From positions 1 through 64,000 of the forward strand of contig NZ_JABBXD010000011.1 in assembly GCF_014750655.1 (NCBI RefSeq): a stretch of 64,000 nt of DNA, in the 5' to 3' direction. The notes beneath the pieces were generated by a model that ran no database searches, was not told where the DNA came from, and saw only the letters and a program-made list of their open reading frames with translations. A program made the position numbers and the translations under genes. Below, one piece after another: positions 24,383 to 61,965 of the stretch. This DNA is from Salinimonas profundi (GTDB lineage Bacteria > Pseudomonadota > Gammaproteobacteria > Enterobacterales > Alteromonadaceae). The number at the start of each line of letters is the position of its first letter. Positions within the stretch are counted from its first letter, which is position 1.

Positions 24383-24413
24383 TTGACCTGTGTGTAAGAC
24401 ATAGGTCTACGCT
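24383..24413 (+). promoter_or_regulatory. CueR-like operator/promoter
   Basis: TTGACC (24383-24388) and TACGCT (24408-24413) are separated by exactly 19 bp. The flanks GACCT...AGGTC form a dyad over the spacer. This MerR-family architecture matches copper-responsive CueR promoters. It drives the regulator-copA operon. Confidence 0.75.
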
Positions 24414-42563: not shown

Positions 42564-44912
42564 CTAGTGCTCTTTAGCTTTGAATAAACGTAATCGATTC
42601 GCGTTGGTCACTACCGTTAACGACGAGAATGCCATCGCTGCACCGGCAATTACTGGGCTTAGTAGTAAGCCTAAAAATGGATAAAAAACACCTGCAGCAA
42701 ATGGGATCCCCGCGACGTTATAGATAAATGCTCCGAAGAGATTCTGCTTTATGTTTCTCAGCGTTGCCTTACTCACTGCAATCGCATCCGCTAACCCATG
42801 TAAGGAGCCTCGCATCAACGTGATATCTGCACTTTCTATTGCGACATCAGTGCCTGTTCCGATAGCAAATCCGACGTTGGCATGGGCTAAGGCGGGCGCA
42901 TCATTGATCCCATCGCCGGTCATTCCGACGATTTCACCCTCACGTTGAAGTTCGAGCACTTTGTTTGCTTTATCTTCTGGCATCACTTCAGCAACGTAAT
43001 CAACAATCCCCGCTTTTCGAGCAACGGCTTTTGCAGTCATACGATTGTCCCCCGTCAACATCACCACACGTATTCCGTTGTGCTGTAGGCGGTTAATCGC
43101 ATCTATTGAGTCTGATTTTATGGGATCGGCAACAGCAATGACGGCAACTAATTTTGAATCAATCGCGAAATACATTGGGGTTTTAGCCTCTGCGGCCAGC
43201 CTCTGCGCTTTATCAACGTAATGATGAAGTTCTATTGATTTTTCTTTCATCAATTTTTCATTGCCAAATAGCAAACGCTGAGAATTCAGTGTTGCCGCTA
43301 CGCCCTTCCCTGCAATGGACTCAAAATCAGTCACCGAGTGGATCGGCACACCTTGCTCTTTCGCTGATTCAACGATCGCCATTGCGAGTGGGTGTTCGGA
43401 ACCCGACTCCAGGCTTGCAGCTAACGAAAGCACGTCATCTTGATTGTGAGCTGACGCAATAACAACGTCGGTAACTTTAGGCGCCCCCTCTGTTATGGTG
43501 CCGGTCTTATCTAATACCATTGTGGTAATTTTCGAAGCAGATTGCAGCGCTTCACCGTTGCGGATAAGTACGCCTGCTTCAGCCGCCTTGCCAACCCCGA
43601 CCATGACCGACATCGGCGTGGCTAAACCTAATGCGCAAGGACATGCAATAATCAGTACCGTGGTTGCTGACACGATTGCGAAGGCAACCTCGGGAGCCGG
43701 ACCAAAATTGAGCCACGCTAGTGCGCTCATTACGGCAATGATCATAACAACCGGCACGAAATAGGCAGAAATAACATCTGCCAATCGACCAATAGGTGGT
43801 TTTGAATTTTGTGCACGTTTTACCATGTTGATGATCTGAGCTAGCGCGGTGTCTTTTCCCACGCGTTCTGCCCGAAAGACGATAGAGCCTGATTTGTTGA
43901 TGGTACCGGCCACAACCTCATCGTCTTTTCGCTTCTCAATTGGCATAGGCTCACCCGTTAGCATTGATTCATCAATACTGGTTTGGCCCTCGACGACTAC
44001 ACCATCTACAGAAATGCGTTCTCCGGGTCGAACTCGGATAAGATCATTGAGCAAAACATCTTCAATAGGAATATCAATATCATCGCCATCTCGAATGACA
44101 CGTGCAGTCTTGGCTTGCAAGCCTATCAGCCTTTTAATGGCCTCTGAGGTTTTACCGCGTGCTTTGATCTCAAGGGCCAGGCCCAAATTAATTAGGCCGA
44201 TGATCATGGCGGTTGCCTCAAAATAAACATGTCGTGCCATTTCAGGGACATACCCCGGAAAGAACACAACTGTCATCGAGTACAACCAGGCGGTTCCTGT
44301 ACCCAAGGCTATCAAAGTATCCATATTGGCCGAATGATTTTTAAACGAATTCCATGCACCCACATAAAAATGACGACCAGAGAACACCATGACACCTAAT
44401 GTCATGAGCCCAATAATCAACCATACAATTCGCTCCGTGGTCGTGTTGACGCTCATTTCCCCGGTTACCAAACCATAGATCATGAGCGGTACTCCAAGCG
44501 ACAATGCAATGACCATATGTCGCATTAGCTTTTTATAATATGCCCAATCCGCTTGCTCTTTTTCTTCAATGGCAGCCTCATCAGAATCGGCATTTGCCAG
44601 CGTTGCGTTATACCCAGCTTCTTCTACCGCACGAACCAGTTCGCTTGGCGAGGCATTACTATTGATAAGCACTGTACGCTGTGCAAAGTTCATTTCTGCG
44701 CTGGTGACGCCTGCGACTTGTTTTAAGGCTGTTTCAATTTTAGTGACGCAACTGGCACAACTCGCCCCTTGAATATTAAGTTGTATCTCGCCTGCATCGG
44801 AAGACACCTGTCTGGTCTGCGTTTTAGTGTCAACCGCTTCGTTCGCGGTTGATGTTTTATCGCCGCCACTACAACACCCATGTGCTTTCGCACTGTCTGT
44901 TTTAGAATTCAT
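42564..44912 (-). CDS. copA: Copper-exporting P1B-type ATPase CopA (second copy)
   Basis: This 782-residue P1B-1 ATPase has a Cys-containing N-terminal extension ([13 protein letters not shown]), HMA motif GASCASC (Cys 52 and 55), CPC in [40 protein letters not shown] and FSSLTVV. It is close in sequence to the CopA at 24875-27118 and its operon has the same order. The N-terminal extension is not in the other copy and adds a second cysteine pair. Confidence 0.95.
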
Positions 44913-44936: not shown

Positions 44937-45347
44937 TTATGACTTAAGCGCTGTGAAACCTTCAATTAAATGGCATATCGTATCGGCCGTTGGAGGTTGA
45001 TCGGGTTTGTTTTGCCACTCTGAAGTGGCTAAGCGCATGCGCTCTCTAAGTTCATGCATGTCCTGATACCGCTGTTCAGTCTCTTTCAACCTCTTTTCAA
45101 TAAGACGCCTTACCGTTGGACACGGCGCATTGGTTTGTGGAGATGTAACTAGGATCTCTTTAATATCATTGACCGAAAAACCTAGTGACCGAGCACTTAA
45201 AATGAATCGTAGTCGCGTCACATCCGCTGGCCGATAATACTTGTATCCATTGTGGGATCTATTTGGGACCAAAAGTCCAATGCGCGTATAATAGCGTACG
45301 GTATCAACGCTAATATCTAGTGCATCTGCTATTTGTTTTACCCGCAT
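44937..45347 (-). CDS. cueR: CueR-like copper regulator
   Basis: This 136-residue MerR-family regulator has HTH and wing (ISVDTVRYYTRIGLLVPNRS, NGYKYYRPAD) and a C-terminal helix with the conserved Cys in NAPCPTVRRLIE and Cys in DTICHLIEG. The pattern suits a Cu(I)-sensing member of the MerR family. It is the intact paralog of the frameshifted gene at 24455-24882. The operator at 45425-45455 lies upstream. Confidence 0.8.
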   Translation of the reverse strand: MRVKQIADALDISVDTVRYYTRIGLLVPNRSHNGYKYYRPADVTRLRFILSARSLGFSVNDIKEILVTSPQTNAPCPTVRRLIEKRLKETEQRYQDMHELRERMRLATSEWQNKPDQPPTADTICHLIEGFTALKS

Positions 45348-45424: not shown

Positions 45425-45455
45425 ACGATAAACCTGTGAGCCGCTCACAGGTCAA
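45425..45455 (-). promoter_or_regulatory. CueR-like operator/promoter of second copA operon
   Basis: On the minus strand TTGACC (45455-45450), a 19-bp spacer and TATCGT (45430-45425). The spacer region holds a near-perfect dyad ACCTGTGAGC/GCTCACAGGT. It is the clearest of the four CueR-like boxes and sits between hypE and cueR. Confidence 0.8.
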
Positions 45456-45466
45456 CACCTAAACCT

Positions 45467-46537
45467 TCAACAGATCCGTGGAAGTGGCTCATCTTCAAGT
45501 TCACTCATGAAGCGTCGCCCTCCCATTGGCGTAATAATCGACACGCGGCCCTTTAAGTCTGTATTTTTTGATATAACACCAATATGTTGGGCATTTTCAC
45601 CGTTTTTTATACCCCGCCAATGAGTGAGTACTTCGCTGCTAATATCGGGACTGACAATTGCAATAACGCGTCCCTCACAAGCCAAAACGAAAGGATCAAA
45701 GCCTAGAATGTCACACACGCTTGCGACCTCTGGACGCACCGGAATGTTATTTTCAATTAGCTCGATATTGAAACCCGTTTCAGTTGCCACGTCATGGAGT
45801 AACACTGATAGTCCTCCACGCGTTGGGTCTCGGACAAAACGAACGCCTTCTAAGTCTCTGATTGCATTGACTAACGGGAAAACGCTGGCACAGTCGGACT
45901 TTAATTGGCCATGCAACCCATAGTCCTCACGCGCCAGTAATACGCAAGCACCGTGATCGCCAACAGAGCCACTGACAAGTACATGATCGCCCGGCCTTAT
46001 AAGACTCGTATCCCAAATTGGTGTTTCTTGGCTGTCACCCACACCCGTTGTATTGATATAAACGCCACCACCGAATCCCTTTGGAACGACTTTAGTATCT
46101 CCCGTTATTATGGACACATTGGTTTCTACAGCAGCTTGATGCATTTTATGGACAACCTCCTTGAGAGCCGTCATCGAAAAGCCTTCTTCAATAATGAATG
46201 CAGTACTGATATACCGAGGGGTCGCGCCAACGACAGCCAGATCATTCACGGTACCGTAAATACTTAATGCCCCCACATTGCCACCTGGAAATGTGTAAGG
46301 TGAGACAACGAAGCTATCGGTTGTCATACTCAGAAAGGGACCGGCGAAGGTTACCGAAGCCGCGTCGTGTAACAGATCTAGTTCTTTATTGGCAGTATTT
46401 TTAAACACATCATTAATAAGTTTTTTGGTCAATATTCCACCATTGCCTTGCGCTAACCGAATAGTATCGGTGTCCAACGGTTCTGATGATGCTCGATTAT
46501 TACGCTCTATGCCTTTCGTGATGATCTCCTTGAGCAA
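45467..46537 (-). CDS. hypE: Hydrogenase maturation protein HypE
   Basis: This ~356-residue HypE-family protein carboxamide-dehydrates the C-terminal Cys thiocarbamate that supplies cyanide ligands to [NiFe] hydrogenases. Features include RLAQGNGGILTKKLI, FVVSPYTFPGGNVGAL, GDTKVVPKGF, RDPTRGGL and the diagnostic C-terminus LPRIC with its acceptor Cys. No ATG is visible near the family start; TTG 46537 is the longest choice. It follows a HypF C-terminal stub. No hydrogenase structural gene is present in the window. Confidence 0.85.
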   Translation of the reverse strand: MLKEIITKGIERNNRASSEPLDTDTIRLAQGNGGILTKKLINDVFKNTANKELDLLHDAASVTFAGPFLSMTTDSFVVSPYTFPGGNVGALSIYGTVNDLAVVGATPRYISTAFIIEEGFSMTALKEVVHKMHQAAVETNVSIITGDTKVVPKGFGGGVYINTTGVGDSQETPIWDTSLIRPGDHVLVSGSVGDHGACVLLAREDYGLHGQLKSDCASVFPLVNAIRDLEGVRFVRDPTRGGLSVLLHDVATETGFNIELIENNIPVRPEVASVCDILGFDPFVLACEGRVIAIVSPDISSEVLTHWRGIKNGENAQHIGVISKNTDLKGRVSIITPMGGRRFMSELEDEPLPRIC

Positions 46538-46800
46538 TATTCGTGAATTTGCCCGACACTTATTGCTGCATCGTTTAAAGGTAAACTGCTTGGAATAACA
46601 ACAGGAATGTCTGATTGTGCAAAACGTTCAGCTAGGCCATCGCATAAAATGCGGTTTTGGAAGACGCCTCCGGCCAAACCAATATGTTTGAAATCATACT
46701 TTTTGCGACAACGCTGGGTTAACTCCCACGCAGTTTCAATGAGTGATGCGTGAAAATTTGCGACGCGAACTGCTGGCGAACATGTTTTTGCGGATTGCAT
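46507..46800 (-). pseudogene. hypF: HypF C-terminal fragment
   Basis: This 97-residue frame has ATG 46800 after AGAGG and matches only the C-terminal Kae1-like end of HypF (VANFHASLIETAWELTQRC, LAGGVFQNRILCDGL, SSLPLNDAAISVGQ). Full HypF has about 750 residues with acylphosphatase, zinc and YrdC domains, all missing. It overlaps the hypE frame. It may be a remnant, or a retained piece that couples translation of hypE. Confidence 0.75.
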
Positions 46801-46816
46801 TAGCCTCTGTCCTCTA

Positions 46817-48040
46817 TTAACTGTGCGGTGCTGGTATCGACCAGCCAATCACAAAGGATAAGGAAACAACAATCGCGGAAATACCAAGCAATTGAAGCGA
46901 TTTGAAGCGTTGTTCTTTGGGGCGCAGTAGTACTAGCTTGAATGCGATGAGTGTTTGTATAAGGTAATAAAGTGCAAATCCCTTTGACGCGAGATTAATG
47001 ATTTCAAATACGTTGGATGACCAAACTAATATGCCGGCAATCGCGATGACAAGAACATAATAAAACTGAGGAGATATAGATAAATGGAAGAGCTCTTTTA
47101 GCAAACCACCGCCACCTATGGTATCGGCTAATGCGGCACTTAACTGGCTTGCCGTCGCGGCCACAAGTAATAATATCGGCAATACCCAAATGGCTTGACC
47201 CAGGGTATAGCTAATGGTTGTTTCATTCAGTTCGGTTATCGGAAAATCGAGAAAAATGGGACAGGTTAAACCAATAAAAACAACGTAAAGGAAAATGGCA
47301 ATCCACTGGGCATATCGTCCCGCTTTAATACGCTGCTCTGCATTATAGCTATTGCCCATAAAACGCGTGGTTTCGAACCCTTGTGTCACCATGAGCATAC
47401 CGGCAAGCATGCTAAGGGTTTCAAAATGGCTGAGGGATTGTATCGCCTCATGTTTAAACCACGCACTTTTTACTTGTATATCGTAAGTTGCTAGTGCTGT
47501 TAGTACACCAATAATAATCGCCAACTTAATTGTGACTGCGAATAACTCGATGGTTTCCAATCCTCTTGCACCACGAAGCCAAGCGACCAACATAATGATG
47601 ACAAGCAGCCCACTGGTAAACAATTTGATGAGCGTTGTATCGTCAATAGCAAAGCGGTCAAAGACAAACGCGGCAAACAAGCTAATGTAAAACGCCACAG
47701 AAATTGCGTATGCAGCACCGAGGGCCCATTGACTGGCTTTCTCAAGCGTTGCGATACTGCCGTGTGAATTGCGAGCAAGCTCAGGCTCTGCATGACGTAT
47801 ATTGAAGCGAATGACTGAACCCAACAAATATGCCAGAGTCGACAATAAAATAATGCCCAGTAGCGCCCATTTACCCATTACCGAATGCAGCAGTGGTGCA
47901 ATGATCAAAAAGCCACTGCCAATAATTGAAGCCAGCGGTGTTACTGTCGCTCGCCATTGGACAGATTGTCGTAGGCGAGGCAGAAACAATACTATTGCTA
48001 CCAACAGTGAGGTTGCCAGCGCAATGGAATTTGTGATCAC
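46817..48040 (-). CDS. APC-superfamily-like multi-helix transporter
   Basis: This 407-residue membrane protein has about 11 helices, GTG start and strong GGGGGAG leader. Segments such as SIIGSGFLIIAPLLHSVMGK and FIGLTCPIFLDFP look like LeuT/APC-fold transporters, but the exact family was not recognised. It is encoded 12 bp after the multiheme cytochrome gene and overlaps the upstream end of the HypF region in another frame. The substrate is unknown. Confidence 0.6.
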   Translation of the reverse strand: MITNSIALATSLLVAIVLFLPRLRQSVQWRATVTPLASIIGSGFLIIAPLLHSVMGKWALLGIILLSTLAYLLGSVIRFNIRHAEPELARNSHGSIATLEKASQWALGAAYAISVAFYISLFAAFVFDRFAIDDTTLIKLFTSGLLVIIMLVAWLRGARGLETIELFAVTIKLAIIIGVLTALATYDIQVKSAWFKHEAIQSLSHFETLSMLAGMLMVTQGFETTRFMGNSYNAEQRIKAGRYAQWIAIFLYVVFIGLTCPIFLDFPITELNETTISYTLGQAIWVLPILLLVAATASQLSAALADTIGGGGLLKELFHLSISPQFYYVLVIAIAGILVWSSNVFEIINLASKGFALYYLIQTLIAFKLVLLRPKEQRFKSLQLLGISAIVVSLSFVIGWSIPAPHS

Positions 48041-48052
48041 AGTTTCTCCCCC

Positions 48053-48847
48053 TTAATGATGCTTGTACCAGCCGGCACGCTTAATATCGTTCCAGGAAGT
48101 CGATTGATGACAGGCATAACACGCCTCCACTTTGGCTTTTGGCTCGCCAGCGACTTTGGCGGAAATCATTTTAAAATGTTGCATGTAGTGACTGGGCGGC
48201 GCTTCATGACATTGATTGCAATCACGAGATTGACTCGAGGGGTGAATAAACGTCGGCAGTGACCACTTGTCTGTACTGTGGCATTGCACGCAATCCTCTC
48301 CGAACAACGTAAAGTGGCGATCATCGTTGCTGTGGCACTGTGAACAATTCAATAATGCTTCTTTATCACTGACGTCGGGATGCACAAATAGGGGATCAGC
48401 CGTTTGCTTATTCGCTAGAACATTTTCTAAAAAAGCCATCGTGGCTGCGCCTTCGTCAAACGGCACGTTTGGGTTGGGGAGCATATTGAACCCAATATCG
48501 ACCAATGCAATATGGTTCATCAGTGAAATCTTAGCATCTTCACCTTGATGCTCAGTATGACAACTAGCACATTCTGTTATGTCGGCGTGAAACGCAGTAG
48601 GTTGACGCGCGACGATATGCGTATCATTTGCATGACAGGCCACACACTTGTCGCGCTCAACGCCTTCTACTGGCGTGTGACAACTCAAGCAGTCATCCGC
48701 CAAAAACGCATGCGCTTTGCTCAGTGAACCAGGCTCTACCATTTGTTCCCATGGAATTTTTGAAAGATCCTCTGGTGTGTGAAAAAAATGGCTAACACCA
48801 AAGCCCGCTGCGACTAAGCCCAGAATGACTATTATCCACTTGATCAT
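48053..48847 (-). CDS. Membrane-anchored seven-heme cytochrome c
   Basis: This 264-residue protein has an N-terminal membrane helix (WIIVILGLVAAGFGV) and seven CxxCH heme motifs at C53, C68, C93, C168, C186, C210 and C243. Heme-binding and free histidines suggest bis-His ligation, as in class III or NrfH/CymA-like electron carriers. It overlaps the cytochrome b-like gene by four bases. It probably accepts electrons from the membrane partner and delivers them to a periplasmic acceptor. Confidence 0.88.
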   Translation of the reverse strand: MIKWIIVILGLVAAGFGVSHFFHTPEDLSKIPWEQMVEPGSLSKAHAFLADDCLSCHTPVEGVERDKCVACHANDTHIVARQPTAFHADITECASCHTEHQGEDAKISLMNHIALVDIGFNMLPNPNVPFDEGAATMAFLENVLANKQTADPLFVHPDVSDKEALLNCSQCHSNDDRHFTLFGEDCVQCHSTDKWSLPTFIHPSSQSRDCNQCHEAPPSHYMQHFKMISAKVAGEPKAKVEACYACHQSTSWNDIKRAGWYKHH

Positions 48848-49602
48848 AACCAGCGTAGTCCAAAGTAAACTTCACTGAAAATGTGAAAGAACAATACGCC
48901 ATAGAGCGTTATCGAAATCACGATATGAAATTTCAACCAACGAGCAAACCAAGTTTTCGCAGTGTCGTGAATCAGAATGCTGTATTCAACATCAGAAATG
49001 GCATCGATAATAGATAGAACCTTACTCTCTTGTCGAAACAGCTTACTTTGCGCTGAAGTAGGTACACTTAAAGCAATGTATGGAATATGTCTCGCTGATG
49101 TTTGGGCGAAAGTCGAATATCTTACGTCGCAGACCGCGTCTTTTAGAGATTGTTTGGCGCTTGAAAGTGCACCTTGGAGTTCGGTCACTTGACGCTTTTT
49201 CTCTTTCACATTTGAGGAAATAAGTCCTAGTACATACCGACCAACAAATCCACTGATCACAACGACCATCATAAAGATGATGATGGAGACTCCAGTAGCA
49301 CTATCAAAACGATGGGCGCTATGGATGAGTGCAAGAATAGGTCCCAATACTCCAGCATAAATATGAATGCGCAGTAGCGTAGGCATGGCTATTTGCTTGG
49401 TCACGACTTTCTTAAGTGCTTTGTTGCGTTTAATGATCATGTAAAGCAACGGAATAAACATCAATACCAGCGCAGTCAAACCAACGACAAATCCAGCAAA
49501 GCTGCCAGGGAATGCTGGGTCACGGTGCCACACAAACCCTAGCCAAAGTAAGATCATTAAGACCACCAAGCTGCCTACAATGGTTCGTTCTTGACTATTC
49601 AC
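48844..49602 (-). CDS. Cytochrome b-like membrane protein
   Basis: This 252-residue protein has about four to five helices. Paired histidines in RIHIYAGVLGPILALIHSAHR and KFHIVISITLYGVLFFHIF lie in consecutive helices at spacing suitable for two b hemes. A soluble loop of ~70 residues (about 130-200) is predicted coiled coil/helix. It abuts the reductase gene and overlaps the heptaheme cytochrome gene by four bases, so it is the likely membrane link between them. Confidence 0.65.
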   Translation of the reverse strand: MNSQERTIVGSLVVLMILLWLGFVWHRDPAFPGSFAGFVVGLTALVLMFIPLLYMIIKRNKALKKVVTKQIAMPTLLRIHIYAGVLGPILALIHSAHRFDSATGVSIIIFMMVVVISGFVGRYVLGLISSNVKEKKRQVTELQGALSSAKQSLKDAVCDVRYSTFAQTSARHIPYIALSVPTSAQSKLFRQESKVLSIIDAISDVEYSILIHDTAKTWFARWLKFHIVISITLYGVLFFHIFSEVYFGLRWL

Positions 49603-51539
49603 TATGCTTCCACCTCCACATCAGTTTTAGGGATGGCTTGACAGGCTAAAATATAACCACTGACCCTATCTTCTGCCTCCAACCCATCATCAACCTCCAT
49701 ATCAACATCGCCGCGCAGTAATTTCACTTTGCAACTGCCGCAAGAGCCTGCCCGGCACGAATTCTCAATATCAACATCAAGTCCATCAGCAACGTCCAAT
49801 ACGGTTTCATCTGTGCCGGCTTGTGCCTGTGCATTTGATAAACTAAATCGCACTTGGCGCGTATTGTTTACAGGCGTGTTTGGGGCGACCTCCGTTTTAG
49901 TGGCCGTTTTCTTCGGACTCGCACCACCGAAAGCTTCTGTTTTAATATTCGCTTCAGGCATACCCAATTCAGATAAAATATCCTTGGTTGCATCCATCAT
50001 TGCCGGCGGCCCACAAATGTGTGCTGTTTTTAATGCTATGTCCGGCACGAATTCATTTATCAATGCCGATGAAAAACGCCCCTGAGGTCCCATCCAAGAT
50101 GTGCCATCCGCCTGTGTCATACTGACGAGTACTTTCAACCTTGGGTGACGTGCTTGTAGATATTTTAATTCCTGTTCAAAAATAAAATCGTTAGACGTTC
50201 GCGTACAAAACAGAAAATAAATGTCACCGTCCCAGCACGTCGTGGTTAAATAACGTACCGCGCTCATCATGGGCGTGATCCCAACCCCCCCTGAAATCAA
50301 TACAACACTACTTGCATCTTGACCATTGAAGTAAAACTTGCCGCCAGGCGCTTTAATTGAAAGCGTATCTCCCACATTTACGACGTCATGCATATGACGA
50401 GAAACAACACCGAATTCCTCGCGTTTGATGGTGACTTCAAAGTAATACTGCTCAGTGGGTGATGATGCGATGGTGTAAGACCGCTTCACCGGTTTTTCAA
50501 CACCATCAATCGTGAGCGTAAAAGTCACAAATTGTCCAGGTTCAAAACTAAATGGGATGACTTGACCATCGGCGCTGGCAAGTCGAAACGTTTTAACATC
50601 ATGGGTCTCATGAAAAATACCGGTGACTTGCATACTGCCACTATAGACACCTTTACGCGGTGACATAGTCGTAGAAGGTAATACATGCGCTGTAGCGGGT
50701 ATTAAAACAGCGTCAGTCCCTACAGGTGCGTTAGTAGGTATCTCGTTAGGTGATGTTTGCTTAGTGGGCGCAGAAGCGCTTGCGGTCTCAGTGGACCTAA
50801 GCTCTTCTAGCAATGCGGCAGCTCTGCGCATTTTAAATCCATAAACATACACCATGACGACAGTGAAGATCAGCAGAACAAGCATCACTGCAGTATGAAA
50901 CGGCGTCATGCCAAATAGTGTTGAGGAATCATTCACTGGTGAACTGGGTAGCAAATTCATTTGCGATTTAAACCAGGTTAATGCCACTCTTCTGGGATCT
51001 TGCCCATCTTGTATTGCCCGTTTTGCCGCAAGACCACTATCAAAATGCGCGATCCCTTCTTTAACGGTCTCAACAGCTACTTGCATTTGGGTATAGTCAT
51101 CAACGGCTGCGGCACGGGCGAGCGATTCAAACCCGGTAGTCAGTTGTTCACTTCCTTGTTGCATACGCGCCGACGCTTTGCCTAAGATACTATCTCTTTG
51201 TTCCGGCGTGGTTGATTGCATCCGCATTAAAGTTGGATAGAGATCTTTAGGTTTAGGCGCTCCCATTTTCTCCATCATTTTATCCATGCCTTTTGCCATA
51301 CCTGGCCCCATCATTGCGTTGGCATTGCCCGGCTGACCTTTAACTTGGTTGGCTAAAGGCGGAGAATCTGTGCTTGCCGCAACAATCGGCCCATTCGCTG
51401 CCTCAGGATGATGACTGGCATGCTCACTATCCTCAGTCTGTTGCTGTGCGTGCGCATTTATAATCACGAAAAAAAGAACGACGTTTAGAATGACACAATA
51501 GCGGTGAATGATTGATGCGCGTTTACTCCCCCTAGTCAT
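49602..51539 (-). CDS. Membrane FAD/NAD(P)H-2Fe-2S reductase with periplasmic domain
   Basis: This 645-residue protein has a signal/anchor sequence, a Met/Ala-rich periplasmic region (about 30-200), a membrane helix (VMLVLLIFTVVMVYVYGF), an FAD domain (VKRSYTIASSPTE), an NAD(P)H domain (LISGGVGITPMMSAV, CGPPAMM) and a C-terminal plant-type 2Fe-2S ferredoxin (Cys 595, 600, 603 and 633). The domain order matches phthalate dioxygenase reductase/HCR-like enzymes, tethered to the membrane. It overlaps the upstream lipoprotein by four bases. It should oxidise NAD(P)H and reduce the cytochrome partner. Confidence 0.85.
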   Translation of the reverse strand: MTRGSKRASIIHRYCVILNVVLFFVIINAHAQQQTEDSEHASHHPEAANGPIVAASTDSPPLANQVKGQPGNANAMMGPGMAKGMDKMMEKMGAPKPKDLYPTLMRMQSTTPEQRDSILGKASARMQQGSEQLTTGFESLARAAAVDDYTQMQVAVETVKEGIAHFDSGLAAKRAIQDGQDPRRVALTWFKSQMNLLPSSPVNDSSTLFGMTPFHTAVMLVLLIFTVVMVYVYGFKMRRAAALLEELRSTETASASAPTKQTSPNEIPTNAPVGTDAVLIPATAHVLPSTTMSPRKGVYSGSMQVTGIFHETHDVKTFRLASADGQVIPFSFEPGQFVTFTLTIDGVEKPVKRSYTIASSPTEQYYFEVTIKREEFGVVSRHMHDVVNVGDTLSIKAPGGKFYFNGQDASSVVLISGGVGITPMMSAVRYLTTTCWDGDIYFLFCTRTSNDFIFEQELKYLQARHPRLKVLVSMTQADGTSWMGPQGRFSSALINEFVPDIALKTAHICGPPAMMDATKDILSELGMPEANIKTEAFGGASPKKTATKTEVAPNTPVNNTRQVRFSLSNAQAQAGTDETVLDVADGLDVDIENSCRAGSCGSCKVKLLRGDVDMEVDDGLEAEDRVSGYILACQAIPKTDVEVEA

Positions 51540-52381
51540 GACGCATCCTTTTGTTCAGCCGCCCATAGCGCATTTATTTTCGCAATCTGCGGGGGTGTTA
51601 ATACTGAGACGGCTTTCCCCACCGAAGCAATAAACTGTAGGCGTAGGGTGCTGTTTATGGCCTCTATTTCACTAATGGTGTCTTTAATATTGTCGTATTG
51701 AGGCAATCCTTGGGCTGTCAATTCCCACAATAATGCCTCTAATGCACTACGCTGCTGCGCAAGGCTTTTTTGGGAAGACTCCCACTCAGATTGAATCGAT
51801 AACAACGTTTGATACTGCGTATCTGTTAGTTCTAATGTTGTTGTGTGGTTTAAGAAAAAGGCTTGTTCACCAAGGTGGTAAATATGAGGTGCACTACTCG
51901 CACCTGGCAAGCTTATCGTTGATGAAGGTTTGGATATCTCCGGTGTATTTTGTTCAGGAGGCATACCCATCATCGAACTATTTTTCATCATCATCTTACA
52001 CATCATCCCCATGCAAGACTTTCCGTTCATTGTCATCTTCTTTTTCCCTTTTCCCATGCCCATCTTCATCTTGCTCGTCGCTTTAGGGGGCGTAGATGAT
52101 TCGTTGAGTTGAGGGCTGGCATCGCTTTGTTTAACGCCGATATTGCTTTTTGATCGCGCTGCCAGTGAGTTGTCTAATGAGCGCAAAGCTGATTGGATCT
52201 TTGCAAAGTCAGCCGGTGCTAACTCGGGCGCAGTGTCTGAAGATTGTGTTTCTTGAGATTTTTCTTTCGAACTAGTTTGTTGTGTTATCGCTGAACACGC
52301 GGTTGTGAATAAGACACTAGATAATACCAGACTCACAATAGCCGCTAAACGGTAGGTTTGGTGACACTCTCTAATCTTCAC
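51536..52381 (-). CDS. Met-rich lipoprotein with CpxP/Spy-like helical domain
   Basis: This 281-residue protein has a lipobox (FTTACSA), a linker and a Met/Lys/Cys-rich patch (KSCMGMMCKMMMKNSSMMGM near 120), then a helical domain with LTDTQYQTLLSIQSEW and LTPPQIAKINALW. These are two LTxxQ motifs as in Spy/CpxP/CnrX-type sensors and chaperones. The Met patch suggests Cu(I)/Ag(I) binding. It overlaps the reductase gene by four bases. Confidence 0.7.
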   Translation of the reverse strand: MKIRECHQTYRLAAIVSLVLSSVLFTTACSAITQQTSSKEKSQETQSSDTAPELAPADFAKIQSALRSLDNSLAARSKSNIGVKQSDASPQLNESSTPPKATSKMKMGMGKGKKKMTMNGKSCMGMMCKMMMKNSSMMGMPPEQNTPEISKPSSTISLPGASSAPHIYHLGEQAFFLNHTTTLELTDTQYQTLLSIQSEWESSQKSLAQQRSALEALLWELTAQGLPQYDNIKDTISEIEAINSTLRLQFIASVGKAVSVLTPPQIAKINALWAAEQKDAS

Positions 52382-52410
52382 AACGGCATGCTCCTATTCA
52401 AAAATATCGA

Positions 52411-52767
52411 TTAAAACCCACGATCAAACTCAACCATGTCATAACGTGCAAGTTCGCCATCAAGTACAGTAGCCTCTGCAAAATGCTCATCCTTCGTCTT
52501 ACCTAATCGAATTTTGCCCACAAATTCGCGCGAGTAGCCGTCTTCCCCTTCAGAAATTGCTGTCGCATCAAAATCGGTGCGATAAACATTAAAGACTTGA
52601 TGTTCTTTGAGACCATCGGTGTCAGAGACACACACAACTACTTGTTTATCATCGACGGTAACAACCTGCCCACTCATGATGTAGTCATGGTATATCTGGC
52701 TTGCACAGCCCCCTAGTAGCCCAACAGACAAGATTGCAATTGATAAAAGCTTGATTAATTTGTTCAT
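52411..52767 (-). CDS. Small lipoprotein
   Basis: This 118-residue protein has a lipobox (LLGGCAS, Cys 21). The mature part is a predicted beta domain (VVTVDDKQVVVCVSDTDGLK, GKIRLGKTKDEHFAEATV). No family was recognised. It is second in the minus-strand operon starting at 53287. Confidence 0.65.
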   Translation of the reverse strand: MNKLIKLLSIAILSVGLLGGCASQIYHDYIMSGQVVTVDDKQVVVCVSDTDGLKEHQVFNVYRTDFDATAISEGEDGYSREFVGKIRLGKTKDEHFAEATVLDGELARYDMVEFDRGF

Positions 52768-52831
52768 GTAAAACTCCCGCGATTATTAAAAGAAAAGAGG
52801 CAGTCGCTTTTCCTGCCTCATAACGCATTGA

Positions 52832-53287
52832 TTAGTTCTTTTTATGCTTGTGTATTGGCTTCGCTTTTTCAGCCGTATGTCCCATCATTTGCCCCATCAT
52901 GTCTTCCATCATGGCCATACGCTGTTCCATCATTTTCATTTTGTCATCAGTCGACATATCACTGTGTTTATGCTTCATGCCCATGCCGCCTTTCATTCCT
53001 TTTCCATCTTTCATTCCCATCGAATCTTTGCCTTCCATCATGCCCATCATGTCTTGCATCTTTTGGGCATGCTCATGCAACATGGCTTCGCGCTTTTCAG
53101 GATCAGATTCACTTTTTACTTCATCTAAAACTGCTTGCATTTCTTCCATATGTGTTTGCATTTTCTTCATCATCTGACTGTCCATCATCGGCATGTCAGA
53201 TTTATCAGTGTGTTGATGCGCGTAAGAAGTCGCAATTGGCGCAGCGACAAGGGCGCTGGCCAGTAATAATGACGTTAATGTTTTCAT
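52832..53287 (-). CDS. Met/His-rich periplasmic metal-binding protein
   Basis: This 151-residue protein has a signal peptide (SLLLASALVAAPIATSYAHQ) and many Met-His clusters (MPMMDSQMMKKMQTHMEEMQ, MGMKDGKGMKGGMGMKHKH). The ATG at 53287 starts the signal peptide. It is the first gene behind the CueR-like operator at 53346-53376 and resembles the protein at 28472-28906. It probably buffers periplasmic Cu(I). Confidence 0.75.
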   Translation of the reverse strand: MKTLTSLLLASALVAAPIATSYAHQHTDKSDMPMMDSQMMKKMQTHMEEMQAVLDEVKSESDPEKREAMLHEHAQKMQDMMGMMEGKDSMGMKDGKGMKGGMGMKHKHSDMSTDDKMKMMEQRMAMMEDMMGQMMGHTAEKAKPIHKHKKN

Positions 53288-53345
53288 AATTTTTCCTTTA
53301 ATTGTGCTCACATGAGCGGTTTAGGTTTGAAATAGACGACTTGTC

Positions 53346-53376
53346 ACCTTAATTCTATGTCTTAGACTCAGGTCAA
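53346..53376 (-). promoter_or_regulatory. CueR-like operator/promoter of the redox operon
   Basis: On the minus strand TTGACC (53376-53371), a 19-bp spacer including CTAAGACATAG, and TAAGGT (53351-53346). The spacer shares TAAGACATAG with the box at 24383-24413. It faces the Met-rich/reductase/cytochrome operon. Confidence 0.7.
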
Positions 53377-53384
53377 GGTGCTAT

Positions 53385-53450
53385 TTGGGCGATAAAAATT
53401 CGGCCAAAACCTCAAGCTCTTCATCTGTTATAGGCATTTGTGGCATTGCA
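53385..53450 (-). pseudogene. Cytochrome c C-terminal remnant
   Basis: The minus strand reads MPQMPITDEELEVLAEFLS followed by PK and a stop at 53385-53387. This matches the end of class I cytochrome c domains (MP.mp.l.deel..la.fl). A stop lies three codons upstream of the Met, and no heme motif is seen, so it is a leftover of a lost gene. Confidence 0.5.
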
Positions 53451-53730
53451 GATTAGTGCTATCGTAATTTTTTGCACCCGATTTATCCTTTGCTTTTGAT
53501 GAAATCCATCCTATAAATCACACGATAAATGTAATTGATTTAGATCAATCCTTCACGACAATCGGATTACAGAATCATTACATTTCCGTAATCAAATCAT
53601 CGATTTATTTATCCTTGGTTCAAAATTATCTATGCTCAAGCTGCGTCAACAGGTCTCCTCATAGCTACTTTGCAGCGGCATATGCTGAATACCAGATGCA
53701 ATTTTTAATTGGGTGAGCGGATAATAAGAA

Positions 53731-55851
53731 ATGACGAAACACAAAATTGCGGTAATTACCGGTGCAGGATCAGGGATTGGATTAGCATTGACTAATGAAT
53801 TCTTATCAAGGGATCCAAATATGCTTGTTGTTGCACTGTGTCGTGATAGCTCAGAACTAGGAGCGTTCAATGAAAAATTTGAACCCCGCCTCATCATAGA
53901 ACACGTTGATTTTAATAACGAAGCGGCAACGATTGAAATTCAAGAAACGCTTAGCCAATACGAACAGATTGATTACTTAGTGCATTGTGCAGGTATTGTC
54001 ACACCGCTTAAACCTATTCAATCAATAGGCTACAAAGAATGGCGCACGGCACAAAGAATCAACTGCGATATCCCCTTTTTGATAACACAACTGTGCCTGG
54101 ATAAGTTTAAACATAGCCGCGTACTGTATTTGACAAGCGAGCAACCCGTTAGTGCAGTGAAAGGCGCATCAGCATACTGTGTGAGTAAAACGGCTTTAAA
54201 TATGGTGTGTAGTTGTTTTAGACAAGAAGTTAATGAAGATGTAGCTGTTTTTGCCACCGCAGCTCCCGGAAATGTTGATACAGCGATGCAAAAAAAAATC
54301 CGGCAAGTGCCAAGCGATGTACTGCCGATGTCGGCCTTTTTAAGAGGCTTACATGAAGAGAACAAGCTACTACCGCCGCGCCTTGTTGCACAATACCTTT
54401 GGCAATTGTTAAATCGTATAGACCCAAAGACATTTAGCAGAACAAATTGGGATTTATTGCAAAGCATTGACGAAGCGCCGCTCAACCCAATTGATACCAA
54501 TAAAACTATTTCAACGAAGCCAACTGAATCTGACTTACTGTCGTTGCGAAACAAGTTAAGCGGCAGTGTCTGGGACGTTGGAAGTACAGGCTATTCAGCG
54601 CGGCGTCATGTTTTTAATCGAGCCATTTCACATTTTCCATATGCGATAGTCGTGCCTGAGTCAGACGTCGATATCATTAATACAATTGACTATGCCAATC
54701 GCCTTAATTTACAAATATCAGTTAAAGGCGGCGGCCATGGGGTAACGGGTGCGGCCGTTATTGACGGTGGCATTGTCCTTGATATGTCTGCCTTTCAAAG
54801 TATAGAACTTTGCGCAGTTGGTCAGTCAGTAAGAGTGGGCGCGGGTGTGAAAAATCATAATTTGGATCTGTTCTTATCGAAATATAAGAAAGTGATCCCA
54901 TTAGGCACCTGCCCGGATGTCGGTGTTGTAGGAGCAACGTTAGGCGGCGGGATCGGTTTTTTGTCACGCAAACATGGGTTAAGTTGCGACAATGTCTTGG
55001 CGTTTAATCTGATCACAGCAGATGGTCAGCAAAGAGTTATAAACACTTTGGAACACTCTGATCTTTTTTGGGCACTACGCGGCAGTGGCGGCTCTCAATT
55101 TGGCGTTATCACCCACATAACATTTAGGCTGCACCCGGCTCCAGCTTATGTTCAAGGAGGTATCATTGAATGGCCAATTCAAAAGGCAAAGCCTATTTTA
55201 AAGCAATACAGCGATGCTGTACTGCAGGGGCCGAGAACGCAATTCTTATATGCATACATCGCTCGTTCAGCGTTACAAAATGCAAAAATATCAATTATGG
55301 GGTTTAGTGAAGACCCTGACTCCAACCTAAATAACATAGCAAAATGGGAAACGGATGCCGATATCTCTGTTACGCATAAACAATACATAGAGTGCCAGTC
55401 AAATGAATATGAACAAGGGCACGCACTTTATTGGCGCAATGGGATCATTGAAGGTGAACTTACGGAACAGTTTATTGATGCGCTTTTGCAATGCTATCAG
55501 TCTTGCCCAGACAACGCAGCGGGCATTATGCTCGATCCGTTATGTGGCGCGATCCAGGATATCGAGACCCATGAAACCGCATTTATTCATCGCGATGCCT
55601 CATTTGTATGTAGCATCACGGGTGTGACTCTGCCCGATCAAGACAATACCAAGGTTATAGACTGGGTTAATCAAACCTATGAACGATTATCCCCATTTTT
55701 TAATGGCCATGCCTACCAAAATTATGACATGGGCAACGACTGTCCATTGACCAGTTATTTCGGTCACCATGTAGAGCGTTTGATTGCTTTAAAAAAGAAA
55801 TACGACCCTCAACTTAGGTTTGCAGGCTCTTTGCAGCGGGATTTACAATAA
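53731..55851 (+). CDS. SDR-BBE fusion oxidoreductase
   Basis: This 706-residue protein joins a short-chain dehydrogenase (1-250: TGAGSGIG at 10-17, NAG-like HCAG at 85-88, Ser 136, Tyr 149 and Lys 153) to a berberine-bridge-type FAD oxidase (270-706: VKGGGHG with His 336 for covalent flavin, VGATLGGGIGFLSRKHGL, BBE end with YFGHHVERLIALKKKYDP). Each domain is usually a separate protein. The single frame is uninterrupted. A sequential oxidation of one substrate is a natural idea; the substrate is unknown. Confidence 0.85.
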   Translation: MTKHKIAVITGAGSGIGLALTNEFLSRDPNMLVVALCRDSSELGAFNEKFEPRLIIEHVDFNNEAATIEIQETLSQYEQIDYLVHCAGIVTPLKPIQSIGYKEWRTAQRINCDIPFLITQLCLDKFKHSRVLYLTSEQPVSAVKGASAYCVSKTALNMVCSCFRQEVNEDVAVFATAAPGNVDTAMQKKIRQVPSDVLPMSAFLRGLHEENKLLPPRLVAQYLWQLLNRIDPKTFSRTNWDLLQSIDEAPLNPIDTNKTISTKPTESDLLSLRNKLSGSVWDVGSTGYSARRHVFNRAISHFPYAIVVPESDVDIINTIDYANRLNLQISVKGGGHGVTGAAVIDGGIVLDMSAFQSIELCAVGQSVRVGAGVKNHNLDLFLSKYKKVIPLGTCPDVGVVGATLGGGIGFLSRKHGLSCDNVLAFNLITADGQQRVINTLEHSDLFWALRGSGGSQFGVITHITFRLHPAPAYVQGGIIEWPIQKAKPILKQYSDAVLQGPRTQFLYAYIARSALQNAKISIMGFSEDPDSNLNNIAKWETDADISVTHKQYIECQSNEYEQGHALYWRNGIIEGELTEQFIDALLQCYQSCPDNAAGIMLDPLCGAIQDIETHETAFIHRDASFVCSITGVTLPDQDNTKVIDWVNQTYERLSPFFNGHAYQNYDMGNDCPLTSYFGHHVERLIALKKKYDPQLRFAGSLQRDLQ

Positions 55852-55926
55852 ACCGTTAAGCTGGTGTAATACTTACTCAAGCGCTATGGCGATCAACCGT
55901 CAGTTGCAGTAATTAGGATATATACA

Positions 55927-56262
55927 GTGTTTAAATGGATGTTAGTTTTTACTCTACTTCTTCCCACCATTTGCTTTGCCGATACCGATGACTATGTTCA
56001 CGCAGACTTCTATCGCGGATTAGTTGGCCTTAAAAAACAGGTTGATGAGATTAATCGAGATTTACGACTATTGGAAAATGCTACGCTTTCCAATGCAGAA
56101 GTTAATCGTCGACTTGCGCGTATTGAACAAGATATTGATGCGGTGAAAACGTTATATAATGAAGCGACACGCAATTTGGCCAACACAGTATTAACATTAA
56201 CAGCCATCCTAGTTGCCGTTATTTCTGCGGTTATTGCTTGGATGAACCCACACTATTACTGA
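55927..56262 (+). CDS. Exported/membrane hypothetical protein with coiled coil
   Basis: This ~111-residue protein has a signal peptide (WMLVFTLLLPTICFA), a coiled coil (KQVDEINRDLRLLENAT and NRRLARIEQDIDAVKTLYNE) and a C-terminal membrane helix (VLTLTAILVAVISAVIAW). Starts are GTG 55927 or ATG 55939. It follows the SDR-BBE gene by 75 bp. No family was recognised. Confidence 0.55.
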   Translation: MFKWMLVFTLLLPTICFADTDDYVHADFYRGLVGLKKQVDEINRDLRLLENATLSNAEVNRRLARIEQDIDAVKTLYNEATRNLANTVLTLTAILVAVISAVIAWMNPHYY

Positions 56263-56361
56263 TATACAAGTGCTAGAAACGCCGAGACTACTTGTAAAAC
56301 AAACAACGCTCTACTTTTGTCAAAGGTCCCTTATTATCATTGTCTCATCTTCAACTTAGAC

Positions 56362-57066
56362 TCACATAACCGAATGCGAAAGCCAATACACGCTGCCTAA
56401 TGTTACAAAAAACAGAGGTTGATGTAACACATACACAGCAAGACTGTGACGTCCTAAAAACGTGATTTTAGTTGATAATTTCAGTGAAGCACAGGGATCT
56501 ATACCCTTAATAAACATATGGCCAACGCCAATGCCCAGCAATACAACGCCAACCCAAGGAAATAGTGCAACATAATCGTTGGGTGATGACGGCAGCCCCA
56601 ATTCCCATAAGTTAAACGGCCATTTACTTGTAACCACATTCGTTAAGAACAGTGTAATAATCCCTATCCCAATAAAACAAGCCATGACTGGATAACGTGC
56701 GAAGGGAAGGCATAGTACACTGGCCACGGCGATAAAGTGTAAAACACCAAAAAATATCCAATGACTATTGAAAAACCAATAAGTAAATAGTGATATAACG
56801 CATGCCCATACCACTATCCACATTATTCGCTTCGCAAAGGATTTCAAATCCACGCGTTGGTGATGAGCGAACACCAATGATGCACCCACACTTAAGAAAA
56901 AGAGTGATAAAATGACATACCGAAATTGTTTCCAGCCAGGACCATTTGGCACACTCCAATCTACCCAGCCAAAGAACCGCAAGTCATACGCGAAGTGAAA
57001 GATCACCATTAATACAATGGCGACCGTGCGCATGATGTCTAGGGTAACGTTGCGAGTGATGGGCAT
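56362..57066 (-). CDS. DUF1624 acyltransferase-like membrane protein
   Basis: This 234-residue protein has about seven helices and belongs to the DUF1624/heparan-alpha-glucosaminide acetyltransferase-like group: LDIMRTVAIVLMVIFHFAYD at the N-terminus, SVGASLVFA and HSLAVYVLHQPLFF at the C-terminus. It ends the copper operon running from cusA. Its role is unknown; possibly envelope modification. Confidence 0.75.
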   Translation of the reverse strand: MPITRNVTLDIMRTVAIVLMVIFHFAYDLRFFGWVDWSVPNGPGWKQFRYVILSLFFLSVGASLVFAHHQRVDLKSFAKRIMWIVVWACVISLFTYWFFNSHWIFFGVLHFIAVASVLCLPFARYPVMACFIGIGIITLFLTNVVTSKWPFNLWELGLPSSPNDYVALFPWVGVVLLGIGVGHMFIKGIDPCASLKLSTKITFLGRHSLAVYVLHQPLFFVTLGSVYWLSHSVM

Positions 57067-57077
57067 ACTGACGTCGC

Positions 57078-57563
57078 TTAATGATGCTTGTGGGGCTTTT
57101 TATCGCGGGTAGACGAATGTGAATGTATGACTTTCCATCCATTACTCGTTCGTTTAAACAAGTACGTTTGGTAGCCCTTTTTGTCAAATGTTGAGCCAGT
57201 TTTTCTTACTTCACCAGACACATTTACGGTCGTAATCGCCCATGCCATATCGTCATCAATTGTAATATCCATATCCAATATATCGATGGTGAGGCGTTTG
57301 AGTACTTCTTTCTCTGGCTCCACATGATTTTCGACGAGATCACTTAATCCTGTGTTTTGGCCGCCTGATTCAATGTATCGAGCACCTTTATGGTCGAGAT
57401 AGTGTTCATAAAAAGGCCGTCCTTGGCCCGACTCCCAACCGTTTTCAATAGCAATGATAATTTCTTCAATCGTCGCTTTGTCTTCATCTGCCTGTGATGC
57501 AAAGACGCCCAGTGTAGTTGTGCTTAACATCAGGACGAGTGAGATTCGTATAAGTAACGTCAT
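57078..57563 (-). CDS. Exported SnoaL/NTF2-like protein
   Basis: This 161-residue protein has a signal peptide (LVLMLSTTTLGVFA) and an NTF2-like fold (DDDMAWAITTVNVSGEVRKT, GWKVIHSHSSTRDKKPHKHH). The His-rich tail could bind metal. It follows the DUF4440 gene by 26 bp and precedes the DUF1624 gene. Confidence 0.65.
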   Translation of the reverse strand: MTLLIRISLVLMLSTTTLGVFASQADEDKATIEEIIIAIENGWESGQGRPFYEHYLDHKGARYIESGGQNTGLSDLVENHVEPEKEVLKRLTIDILDMDITIDDDMAWAITTVNVSGEVRKTGSTFDKKGYQTYLFKRTSNGWKVIHSHSSTRDKKPHKHH

Positions 57564-57589
57564 TTAAAGTTTTCCTATAAATTAAAGTG

Positions 57590-58069
57590 TTAATGGGACC
57601 AATGGATATGACTTATTTTCCAATGACCATTGATAAGGTTAAGTACCAGTGTTTCATTTCCTTGCTTATCAATTTGTTTACCTTTGTATGTGCCAAGGGT
57701 GTGGCTTCTGGCAATTGAGACCGCCGTATCCCCATAAACGCGAACATGATGTTCAATTGTTGTGGTTTTGACAGCCGCAGAAAATCGCATATCAGCGTGT
57801 AAATGATGTTGCCGATATTCTTCGGCACTGCGTTCTATTCGCGATCCCTCTAAAATAATGACTTCGGATGTCAATGCACTCATGACGTCATCCGCTTGGC
57901 CATTAGATAATGCTTCGTGATAAGCGAGCACACTGCGACCCGCTGCAGTATCCAAACCACTGAAGTGAGTTGCAGAGCGCTCTATTGATTTGGGTGGCTC
58001 ATGGGCAAACGTACTAAATGAAAGCAGCGCAATAGATAAAACAGTCGTTAAAACGTAATTAATTTTCAT
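57590..58069 (-). CDS. Exported DUF4440-like protein (second copy)
   Basis: This 159-residue paralog of 36647-37108 shares a signal peptide, RSVLAYHEALSNGQADDVMS, EVIILEGSRIERSAEEY and HWKISHIHWS. It follows copD, as in the first copCD set. Confidence 0.75.
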   Translation of the reverse strand: MKINYVLTTVLSIALLSFSTFAHEPPKSIERSATHFSGLDTAAGRSVLAYHEALSNGQADDVMSALTSEVIILEGSRIERSAEEYRQHHLHADMRFSAAVKTTTIEHHVRVYGDTAVSIARSHTLGTYKGKQIDKQGNETLVLNLINGHWKISHIHWSH

Positions 58070-58081
58070 ATAAATCCAAAG

Positions 58082-58996: not shown

Positions 58997-59010
58997 TTTA
59001 ATCTTCCTCT

Positions 59011-59412
59011 TTAATGGTCTTTGTGTTGACTATGGGCTTTTTTGTCATCTTGCATGGACTTGCTTCCGTGAACCATGAAGTCAAATGAACCGTCCATTTT
59101 GTGCCCATCCTCACCAAGTAACATCCACTGTGCGGTATAGTTACCCGGCGATAACGTCGGTAAGTCGTAATTAAAGAAAGTGCTAGACTCCATCGATGGA
59201 GAAAAATTAAAGTCGACAGGCTCGCCGTTTTGAGAATTTAACGTCAATTTGGCCAAACGAACTGGCTCAGTAAAAACAACGGACAATTGTGGAGGCGATG
59301 ACATTAACATCGCATTGTTTTTTGGCATGGACGTTTTCAACGATGTGTGAGCATAACTGCTTGTGCTCAAGAAAAGAGCGGTCAGTAAGAACGTTGACAA
59401 TAGTGTTTTCAT
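59011..59412 (-). CDS. copC: Periplasmic copper-binding protein CopC (second copy)
   Basis: This 133-residue protein has a signal peptide ending SSYAHTS and the CopC domain (SMPKNNAMLMSSPPQLSVVF, AQWMLLGEDGHKMDG) with expected His and DxH ligands. A His-rich C-terminal tail (KKAHSQHKDH) is absent in the other copy. It starts 18 bp after the reductase gene. Confidence 0.92.
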   Translation of the reverse strand: MKTLLSTFLLTALFLSTSSYAHTSLKTSMPKNNAMLMSSPPQLSVVFTEPVRLAKLTLNSQNGEPVDFNFSPSMESSTFFNYDLPTLSPGNYTAQWMLLGEDGHKMDGSFDFMVHGSKSMQDDKKAHSQHKDH

Positions 59413-59430
59413 AAATAAACCTCGGTAGTT

Positions 59431-61263: not shown

Positions 61264-61264
61264 T

Positions 61265-61963: not shown

Positions 61964-61965
61964 AA

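Follow-up and report, generated by a model that had tools for sequence, protein, structure and literature searches.

Gene content of the module

The DNA analysed here (the window) is a stretch of 64,000 nucleotides on contig C11 (NZ_JABBXD010000011.1) of Salinimonas profundi, whose genome comprises 4.07 Mb in 30 contigs. Reading the minus strand of the window from 53376 to 45467 revealed a run of genes for a predicted electron-transfer module, in the order Met-rich protein, lipoprotein, Met-rich lipoprotein, reductase, cytochrome b, heptaheme cytochrome c and a 407-aa membrane protein, followed by pieces of hyp genes and, past these in the same region, by merR and a copA-type ATPase gene. An initial annotation had described a same-strand run with short overlaps, and three such overlaps were located (48844-48847, 49602 and 51536-51539). 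The module genes are the following:

52832..53287, minus strand: Met-rich exported protein, 151 aa (sequence; homologues in related loci)
52411..52767, minus strand: small lipoprotein, 118 aa (sequence; homologues in related loci)
51536..52381, minus strand: Met-rich lipoprotein SpyLP, 281 aa (matched in other loci by its C-terminal part, Met-rich stretch excluded)
49602..51539, minus strand: membrane reductase, 645 aa (Pfam FAD, NAD and 2Fe-2S domains; conserved Met-rich segment)
48844..49602, minus strand: five-helix cytochrome b of diheme type, 252 aa (invariant H80/H94 and H226/H240, SGxxG; model pLDDT 82)
48053..48847, minus strand: heptaheme cytochrome c (Cyt, P0004), 264 aa (seven CXXCH motifs; N-terminal anchor)
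46817..48040, minus strand: polytopic membrane protein Orf2, 407 aa (present also in loci without hydrogenase)

The reductase contains the FAD, NAD and 2Fe-2S domains that the initial annotation had assigned to it, arranged behind a signal peptide, a Met-rich segment and one transmembrane (TM) helix; flavohemoprotein, cytochrome b5 reductase and NqrF are among its relatives in the PDB. A Met-rich stretch, defined as at least six Met within 30 residues, was present in 48 of 50 reductases, both misses being cut at contig ends, compared with 10 of 180 other open reading frames (ORFs) of 400-900 aa. Among these ten were three reductases of the same family that the position filter had missed, two SpyLP and two oxidases.

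By its collinear order, the cytochrome b corresponds to Orf1 of the Alteromonas hydrogenase operon. Across 38 sequences, the histidine pairs H80/H94 and H226/H240, whose members stand 13 residues apart, and S117-G118 are invariant, and G121 is nearly so. The structural model displays five membrane-length helices, according to our own TM reading, and a long polar helical part. When this model was compared with the PDB by Foldseek, nothing matched at E<=0.001, and coiled-coil and ABC-transporter chains filled the top rows; a PDB sequence search with the cytochrome b profile returned three matches only (E 0.36-0.48), which we take as chance. In Cyt, the residues of all seven CXXCH motifs are invariant in 32 sequences, in agreement with the heptaheme cytochrome first proposed; its profile retrieved nothing from PDB sequences at E<=0.01, and its structure model was poor (mean pLDDT 56.7).

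The proposed likeness of the third protein to Spy received weak support, as SpyLP (P0007) had no Pfam match and one distant homologue matched Metal_resist and LTXXQ with scores under the curated cut-offs. When the Met-rich part is disregarded, homologues of SpyLP occur in 22 of the 45 loci L051-L095. The 407-aa Orf2 had been labelled a transporter; with no match in Pfam or NCBIfam, it is described here as a polytopic membrane protein.

Loss of the hydrogenase and retention of the module

A 15.1-kb query taken from the window matched nine plasmid records, and gene content was read in three of them. The query and plasmid plas12 of Salinimonas iocasae are 100% identical, pGLAAG01 of Glaciecola sp. 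4H-3-7+YE-5 shows 98.2% identity across the module, and pAlt83_a of A. macleodii about 80% identity to it. Between the 407-aa gene and hypE, both pGLAAG01 and pAlt83_a carry hynD, hupH, hynS, hynL, a small ORF, and hypC, A, B, D and F. Alignment of the window with pGLAAG01 resolved into two collinear blocks, with 8628 bp gone from the window. This 8.6-kb deletion took out the [NiFe] hydrogenase HynSL and most of the maturation genes, and left the following features, listed together with a remnant at the other end of the module:

46756..46767, no strand: deletion junction (8628 bp) by alignment, with 7 bp common to both flanks; the same junction is found in L040, L042 and L050
46507..46800, minus strand: fusion remnant, hynD start joined to hypF tail (sequence, Pfam, locus alignments)
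45467..46519, minus strand: hypE remnant without start codon (TIGR02124; alignment to L001 and L042)
53381..53452, minus strand: 3' end left over from a diheme cytochrome c gene (aligned to L001 and relatives)

The 97-aa "HypF stub", initially counted as an operon gene, consists of about 15 first residues of HynD and the HypF tail, and is thus a HynD-HypF fusion made by the deletion. For HypE, the identity stands, with 356.3 bits against an equivalog cut-off of 251.6, and the role as a working member does not: one substitution has destroyed the start codon, which is standard in L001 and in L042, even though the latter shares the window's junction. In L040 and L050, which also have this junction, most of hypE is gone too, and Aliiglaciecola lipolytica (L056) has lost the hydrogenase by a different deletion, from hynD to hypE. 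Searches of the S. profundi genome returned no match to the hydrogenase profile PF00374 or to HypD. The hyp maturation set is incomplete, with no HypD, only the tail of hypF and hypE without its start. The HypF and HypE pieces are deletion debris and not working members of the module.

The module itself has been kept. Across the 15 copies compared, hydrogenase-deleted ones among them, its seven genes are free of internal stops, and its reading frames are open after both of the different deletions. The ratio of nonsynonymous to synonymous substitution rates (dN/dS) is low for the cytochromes b and c and reaches 0.3-0.7 for the Met-rich lipoprotein and the reductase in close pairs; since copies recombine, these values do not date the hydrogenase losses.

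The diheme cytochrome c gene and a porin gene are both whole in pGLAAG01, and the porin is also found in several relatives. At 53441-53452, identity to pGLAAG01 drops from 98-99% to about 78-80% (53441-64000). This drop, next to the lost porin and diheme cytochrome genes, is a second rearrangement or recombination boundary.

Recurrence of the trio in distant bacteria

Co-occurrence of the reductase, cytochrome b and heptaheme cytochrome (hereafter the trio) in other genomes had been put forward as a check on the initial annotation. Among 246 sampled genomes of the family, the cytochrome b was matched in 14, in nine of them at 55% identity or more. When a species-genome collection was scanned once with the alignment of the cytochrome b, 56 loci were obtained, with titles from gammaproteobacteria, Halobacteriovorax and relatives, Planctomycetes, Nitrospinaceae, Nitrospirales, Omnitrophota, Verrucomicrobia, Polyangia and a Sphingopyxis; metagenome-assembled genomes, whose taxon names are possibly uncertain, account for many of these loci. 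The ordered trio was present in 56 of 56 loci (48 by ORF calling, 8 by tblastn), the heptaheme cytochrome of L064 extending to the contig end. These comparisons support the view that the three proteins belong together as a unit, found repeatedly in distant bacteria. A survey of 369 genomes of the class gave 45 matches, two of them above 100 bits, in the S. profundi genome and in G378, where SpyLP, reductase, cytochrome b, heptaheme cytochrome, a gene of unknown product, CopA oxidase and CopB follow each other on one strand.

The hydrogenase is a far less regular companion. HynS/HynL adjoin the trio in 9 of the 56 loci and are absent in 35, where at least 6 kb downstream could be seen, the other 12 being too short. 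A purely hydrogenase-bound role for the trio was therefore rejected, at least 35 of the 56 loci having no neighbouring hydrogenase. A whole-genome search of 41 genomes found some PF00374 match in 17; many of these, partial and two-ended, look like complex I subunits. Scores of 700 bits or more were reached in G277, G279, G254 and G286, and trio-adjacent matches are found in G250 and G251. Among the nine Alteromonadaceae genomes with a strong cytochrome b match, PF00374 was matched in three and in none of the other six.

Orf2 was found in 13 loci without hydrogenase. Six of these (L054, L059, L060, L061, L063 and L065) are left after exclusion of the deletion cases L040, L042, L050 and L056 and the contig-end cases L048, L062 and L066, and five of the six genomes, all with Orf2 and no adjacent hydrogenase, have no PF00374 match. 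Because these six loci carry Orf2 without a hydrogenase or signs of a deletion, its job may not be hydrogenase-specific.

In nine loci, a small DUF1622 membrane protein is encoded after the heptaheme gene on the same strand (e.g. L070:6647-7066; Pfam assignment of one).

Copper and glutamate dehydrogenase genes near the trio

Gene neighbourhoods were searched in 39 loci, and the counts given here are for the 35 from L057 on; L062, L064, L066 and L071 (the same genome as L067) did not belong to the genomes used. Observed counts come from phmmer single queries and expected counts from whole-genome matches, two detectors that differ; the expected counts are upper estimates because whole-genome match counts include split domains, and Poisson values serve as a guide only because the loci are related to each other. 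A CopA-type multicopper oxidase lies near the trio in 12 of the 35 loci against 0.43 expected, with six matches at 470 bits or more, one at 146 and five at 30-85. At least one of 13 marker types was found in 28 of the 35.

A glutamate dehydrogenase (GDH), from two families, also lies near the trio in 13 of the 35 loci against 0.37 expected (L060, L065, L067, L068, L072, L074, L076, L077, L079, L080, L086, L089 and L093). Nine GDHs resemble one type and lie upstream of the trio at a centre-to-centre distance of 3-5 kb; of the four that are like the NADP-specific type, three lie downstream and one lies upstream. Outside this count stand the GDH of L071 and a 99-aa GDH fragment in L056, and G250 and G251 each have one further GDH about 7 kb from the hydrogenase gene. 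We found no explanation for the link between GDH and the trio; its recurrence suggests a supply of NAD(P)H and an outward flow of electrons.

Operator sites and the MerR-family regulator

The module and two copA-type genes of the window are preceded by predicted operators of one pattern:

53346..53376, minus strand: MerR-type promoter/operator of the module (-35, 19-bp spacer with imperfect dyad, -10; genome pattern match)
45425..45455, minus strand: second operator site, before merR-copA (genome pattern match)
24383..24413, plus strand: third operator site, about 420 bp before the other copA-type gene (genome pattern match)
44937..45347, minus strand: MerR-family regulator (Pfam)
42564..44912, minus strand: copA-type P-type ATPase, "heavy metal translocating P-type ATPase" in the annotation of the identical plasmid
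24836-27118: other copA-type ATPase gene, operator site about 420 bp before it

The 19-bp spacer and dyad that mark MerR-type promoters are present at all three sites. The pattern has exactly three matches in the 4.07-Mb genome, before the two copA genes and the module; it had none in 100 shuffles of the window, and the reversed pattern had no match in the genome. The three-site result is post hoc because the pattern was shaped on those sites. A looser pattern (TTGACC, 19 bp, TAnnnT) returned the same three sites with 0.56 expected. In pGLAAG01, two operator sites stand at homologous places, and a near-identical pattern occurs in 17 of 95 loci, several of which are copies of one island. The module operator is conserved in Alteromonas-type relatives and is not kept in L053 and L055.

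The initial annotation had called the operator CueR-like. A MerR-type promoter/operator is indeed found at 53346-53376; the neighbouring regulator is not a CueR equivalog, and this identity was rejected at 65.6 bits against a cut-off of 147.4. Its Cys76 aligns with a cysteine of MerR and of CadR. A MerR-type regulator common to the module and the two copA genes probably switches the module on, and the window does hold an electron-transfer unit, under probable metal control.

The two copA-type blocks of the window (24836-27118 and 42564-44912) are diverged from each other, with the same operator type before each. The copA-type block of pGLAAG01 has about 69% DNA identity to the first.

Proposed mechanism and alternative explanations

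Taken together, the sequence comparisons make an electron-export chain of a metal island, running from NAD(P)H to a periplasmic heptaheme cytochrome and likely reducing Cu(II), our leading though still tentative reading of the module, with a little less than an even chance of being right. Here, NAD(P)H would reduce the membrane-anchored FAD/2Fe-2S reductase, and electrons would traverse the inner membrane via the cytochrome b with its five helices and two hemes, much as in a split Fre/NOX-type reductase, and arrive at the membrane-anchored heptaheme cytochrome c on the predicted periplasmic side. The simplest path would thus comprise NAD(P)H, FAD, 2Fe-2S, two b hemes and seven c hemes. Because of the copper neighbourhood and the Met-rich segments, we infer that the final acceptor is most likely periplasmic Cu(II), yielding Cu(I), which may be held for efflux or oxidation by the reductase's own Met-rich segment and by the exported Met-rich proteins. 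Attached downstream in some marine gammaproteobacteria, HynSL may put electrons from H2 into the same cytochrome; in S. profundi, the hydrogenase was deleted and the module kept. Of the reading first proposed, the comparisons support the unit, which recurs often beside copper genes, and the operator, which belongs to the three-site set; HypF and HypE as working members are not supported.

Several observations weigh against this export chain. The five weaker oxidase matches (30-85 bits; L067, L081, L082, L083 and L093) belong to the copper count, 7 of the 35 loci are without any of the 13 marker types, some of which are not copper-specific, and the loci are not independent. The looser operator pattern reaches three matches in 3 of 100 shuffles, and the window's module operator, like that of S. 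iocasae (L003), carries one substitution in its right half-site that other relatives do not have. As the MerR scores below the CueR cut-off and aligns at Cys76 as described, a metal other than copper may be the inducer. The direction of electron flow, too, is only suggested, by the neighbouring GDH genes.

A partnership with the hydrogenase, in which the module would tie a periplasmic HynSL to the NAD(P)+ or quinone pool and be a vanishing relic in S. profundi, is improbable, at roughly one chance in seven. It would fit the nine loci in which the hydrogenase adjoins the trio, the decay of hypE and hypF in the window, and the position of the module at the head of the hydrogenase operon in pGLAAG01 and pAlt83_a. 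Indeed, a pathway partner is known for some members of the family, because the Alteromonas-type module heads a hydrogenase operon that has been partly cloned and expressed (PMC3102683). Against such a partnership, the hydrogenase is absent in 35 loci with at least 6 kb seen downstream and PF00374 in six of the nine strong-match Alteromonadaceae genomes; moreover, the module frames stay open after two different deletions, and Orf1 and Cyt are reported to be dispensable for HynSL activity in E. coli (PMC3102683).

Equally improbable is a part in periplasmic repair or maintenance, with electrons delivered under copper stress to Met-rich copper proteins or oxidants and not to copper. MsrPQ, in which a flavin reductase and a membrane cytochrome b export electrons and MsrQ serves MsrP, offers an analogous logic, and the run does encode Met-rich exported proteins; among those of its genes that were searched against Pfam and NCBIfam there is no repair enzyme, however, and a heptaheme wire would seem unnecessary for such a task. 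Slightly less likely still is inward, respiratory flow, from periplasmic donors (H2, Cu(I) or others) through the heptaheme cytochrome and cytochrome b to NAD(P)+ or quinone. HynSL would serve as such a donor, and He et al. suggest that comparable five-helix proteins are quinone-active (PMC5566968), but GDH, which is able to make NAD(P)H, recurs nearby, and a general respiratory role leaves the Met-rich Cu(I) ligands and copper neighbours unexplained. Least likely of these, and quite doubtful, is another acceptor, a different metal or an extracellular substrate (Fe, Hg, Ag, Au), with the copper genes as mere island neighbours. Met-rich segments favour Cu(I) or Ag(I), and copper oxidases recur near the trio in distant groups; on the other side, the MerR may sense another metal, the porin and diheme cytochrome genes of relatives could form an outer-membrane path, and the plasmid relatives are reported as multi-metal islands (PMC4781885).

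Comparison with known systems

The Alteromonas cluster orf1/cyt/orf2/hynD/hupH/hynSL/hyp is reported to be expressed in other hosts, with Orf2 among the genes required for maximal HynSL activity in E. coli, and Orf1 and Cyt not among them (PMC3102683). By order, the cytochrome b, Cyt and 407-aa protein of the window correspond to the orf1, cyt and orf2 of this operon (orf1/cyt/orf2/hynD/hupH/hynS/hynL/hypCABDFE), from which its hypE and hypF remnants derive. In contrast to that operon, the window is without hynD to most of hypF, hynS and hynL included, and most trio loci have no such hydrogenase adjoining.

He et al. (2017) describe inner-membrane proteins of PCC3/PCC4 with five helices, HX13H and SGxxG, liken them to ferric reductase/NOX domains, and mention shorter five-helix proteins beside multiheme cytochromes and a further redox gene, mostly with no porin (PMC5566968). 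These shorter proteins, as described there, may include the cytochrome b family of the trio. The window's cytochrome b likewise has two HX13H pairs (helices 3 and 5) and SGxxG (helix 4), with the WX3H extension on helix 5 only, and its profile matched PCC3-like proteins, so called by heme counts, at probability 98.9 over 151 columns. Unlike PCC3/PCC4, which have about 20-60 hemes, the trio has seven, together with a dedicated FAD/2Fe-2S reductase and a copper neighbourhood; the window run shows no extracellular multiheme protein, and the porin gene is missing from the window. Distant cytochrome b relatives of about 300 aa were also seen in L099, L100, L101, L034, L035 and L037, beside 21-heme and 19- to 51-heme cytochromes, PCC3-like.

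With the eukaryotic ferric-cupric reductases Fre/NOX, the trio would share a cytoplasmic FAD/NAD(P)H domain and a membrane diheme part exporting electrons, a likeness that He et al. draw for the inner-membrane proteins (PMC5566968). It differs in consisting of two separate proteins, in its 2Fe-2S domain and in the heptaheme cytochrome; the FAD/NAD(P)H domains and heme-ligand motifs lie on two proteins in the window, of which the cytochrome b has no PDB match in sequence or fold. Relative to MsrPQ, the window run lacks MsrP and has the heptaheme cytochrome instead. Cupric activity is reported for Fre/Steap, and CcoG is described as a bacterial cupric reductase converting Cu(II) to Cu(I) (PMC7558416), the same task that is proposed for the trio. 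The module would best be filed with the transmembrane NAD(P)H metal reductases, with a hydrogenase attached in some hosts.

Among the titles and abstract openings listed in searches of the open-licence literature, none presents the trio as a copper system. That it forms a hitherto undescribed copper-handling system of distant phyla, in which an NAD(P)H-driven split Fre-like reductase with a Met-rich Cu(I)-binding segment and a heptaheme cytochrome would reduce periplasmic Cu(II), fed by a neighbouring GDH in some hosts and powered also by a hydrogenase in some marine gammaproteobacteria, is a bolder proposal that we consider possible, though unlikely. Such a chain from NAD(P)H to heptaheme, conserved and linked to copper genes across distant phyla, would stand as a second candidate, different in kind, and would suggest roles for the Orf1 and Cyt of the Alteromonas hydrogenase, reported as dispensable for its activity in E. 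coli (PMC3102683). If the proposal holds, H2 could pay for copper detoxification in some marine gammaproteobacteria. Natural copies without hydrogenase, the window's included, let a copper role and a hydrogen role be tested apart.

Other features of the island

A metal-resistance island with this hydrogenase is reported as common to plasmids and chromosomes (PMC4781885), and the plasmid of a copper isolate as carrying a copA cluster and hydrogenase genes within one island (PMC8478169). Within the window, 59431-61972 encodes a further NAD(P)H/2Fe-2S reductase, which carries a PepSY-type membrane part by fusion and adjoins a PepSY protein, copC and copD; it could be another electron-export system of the island.

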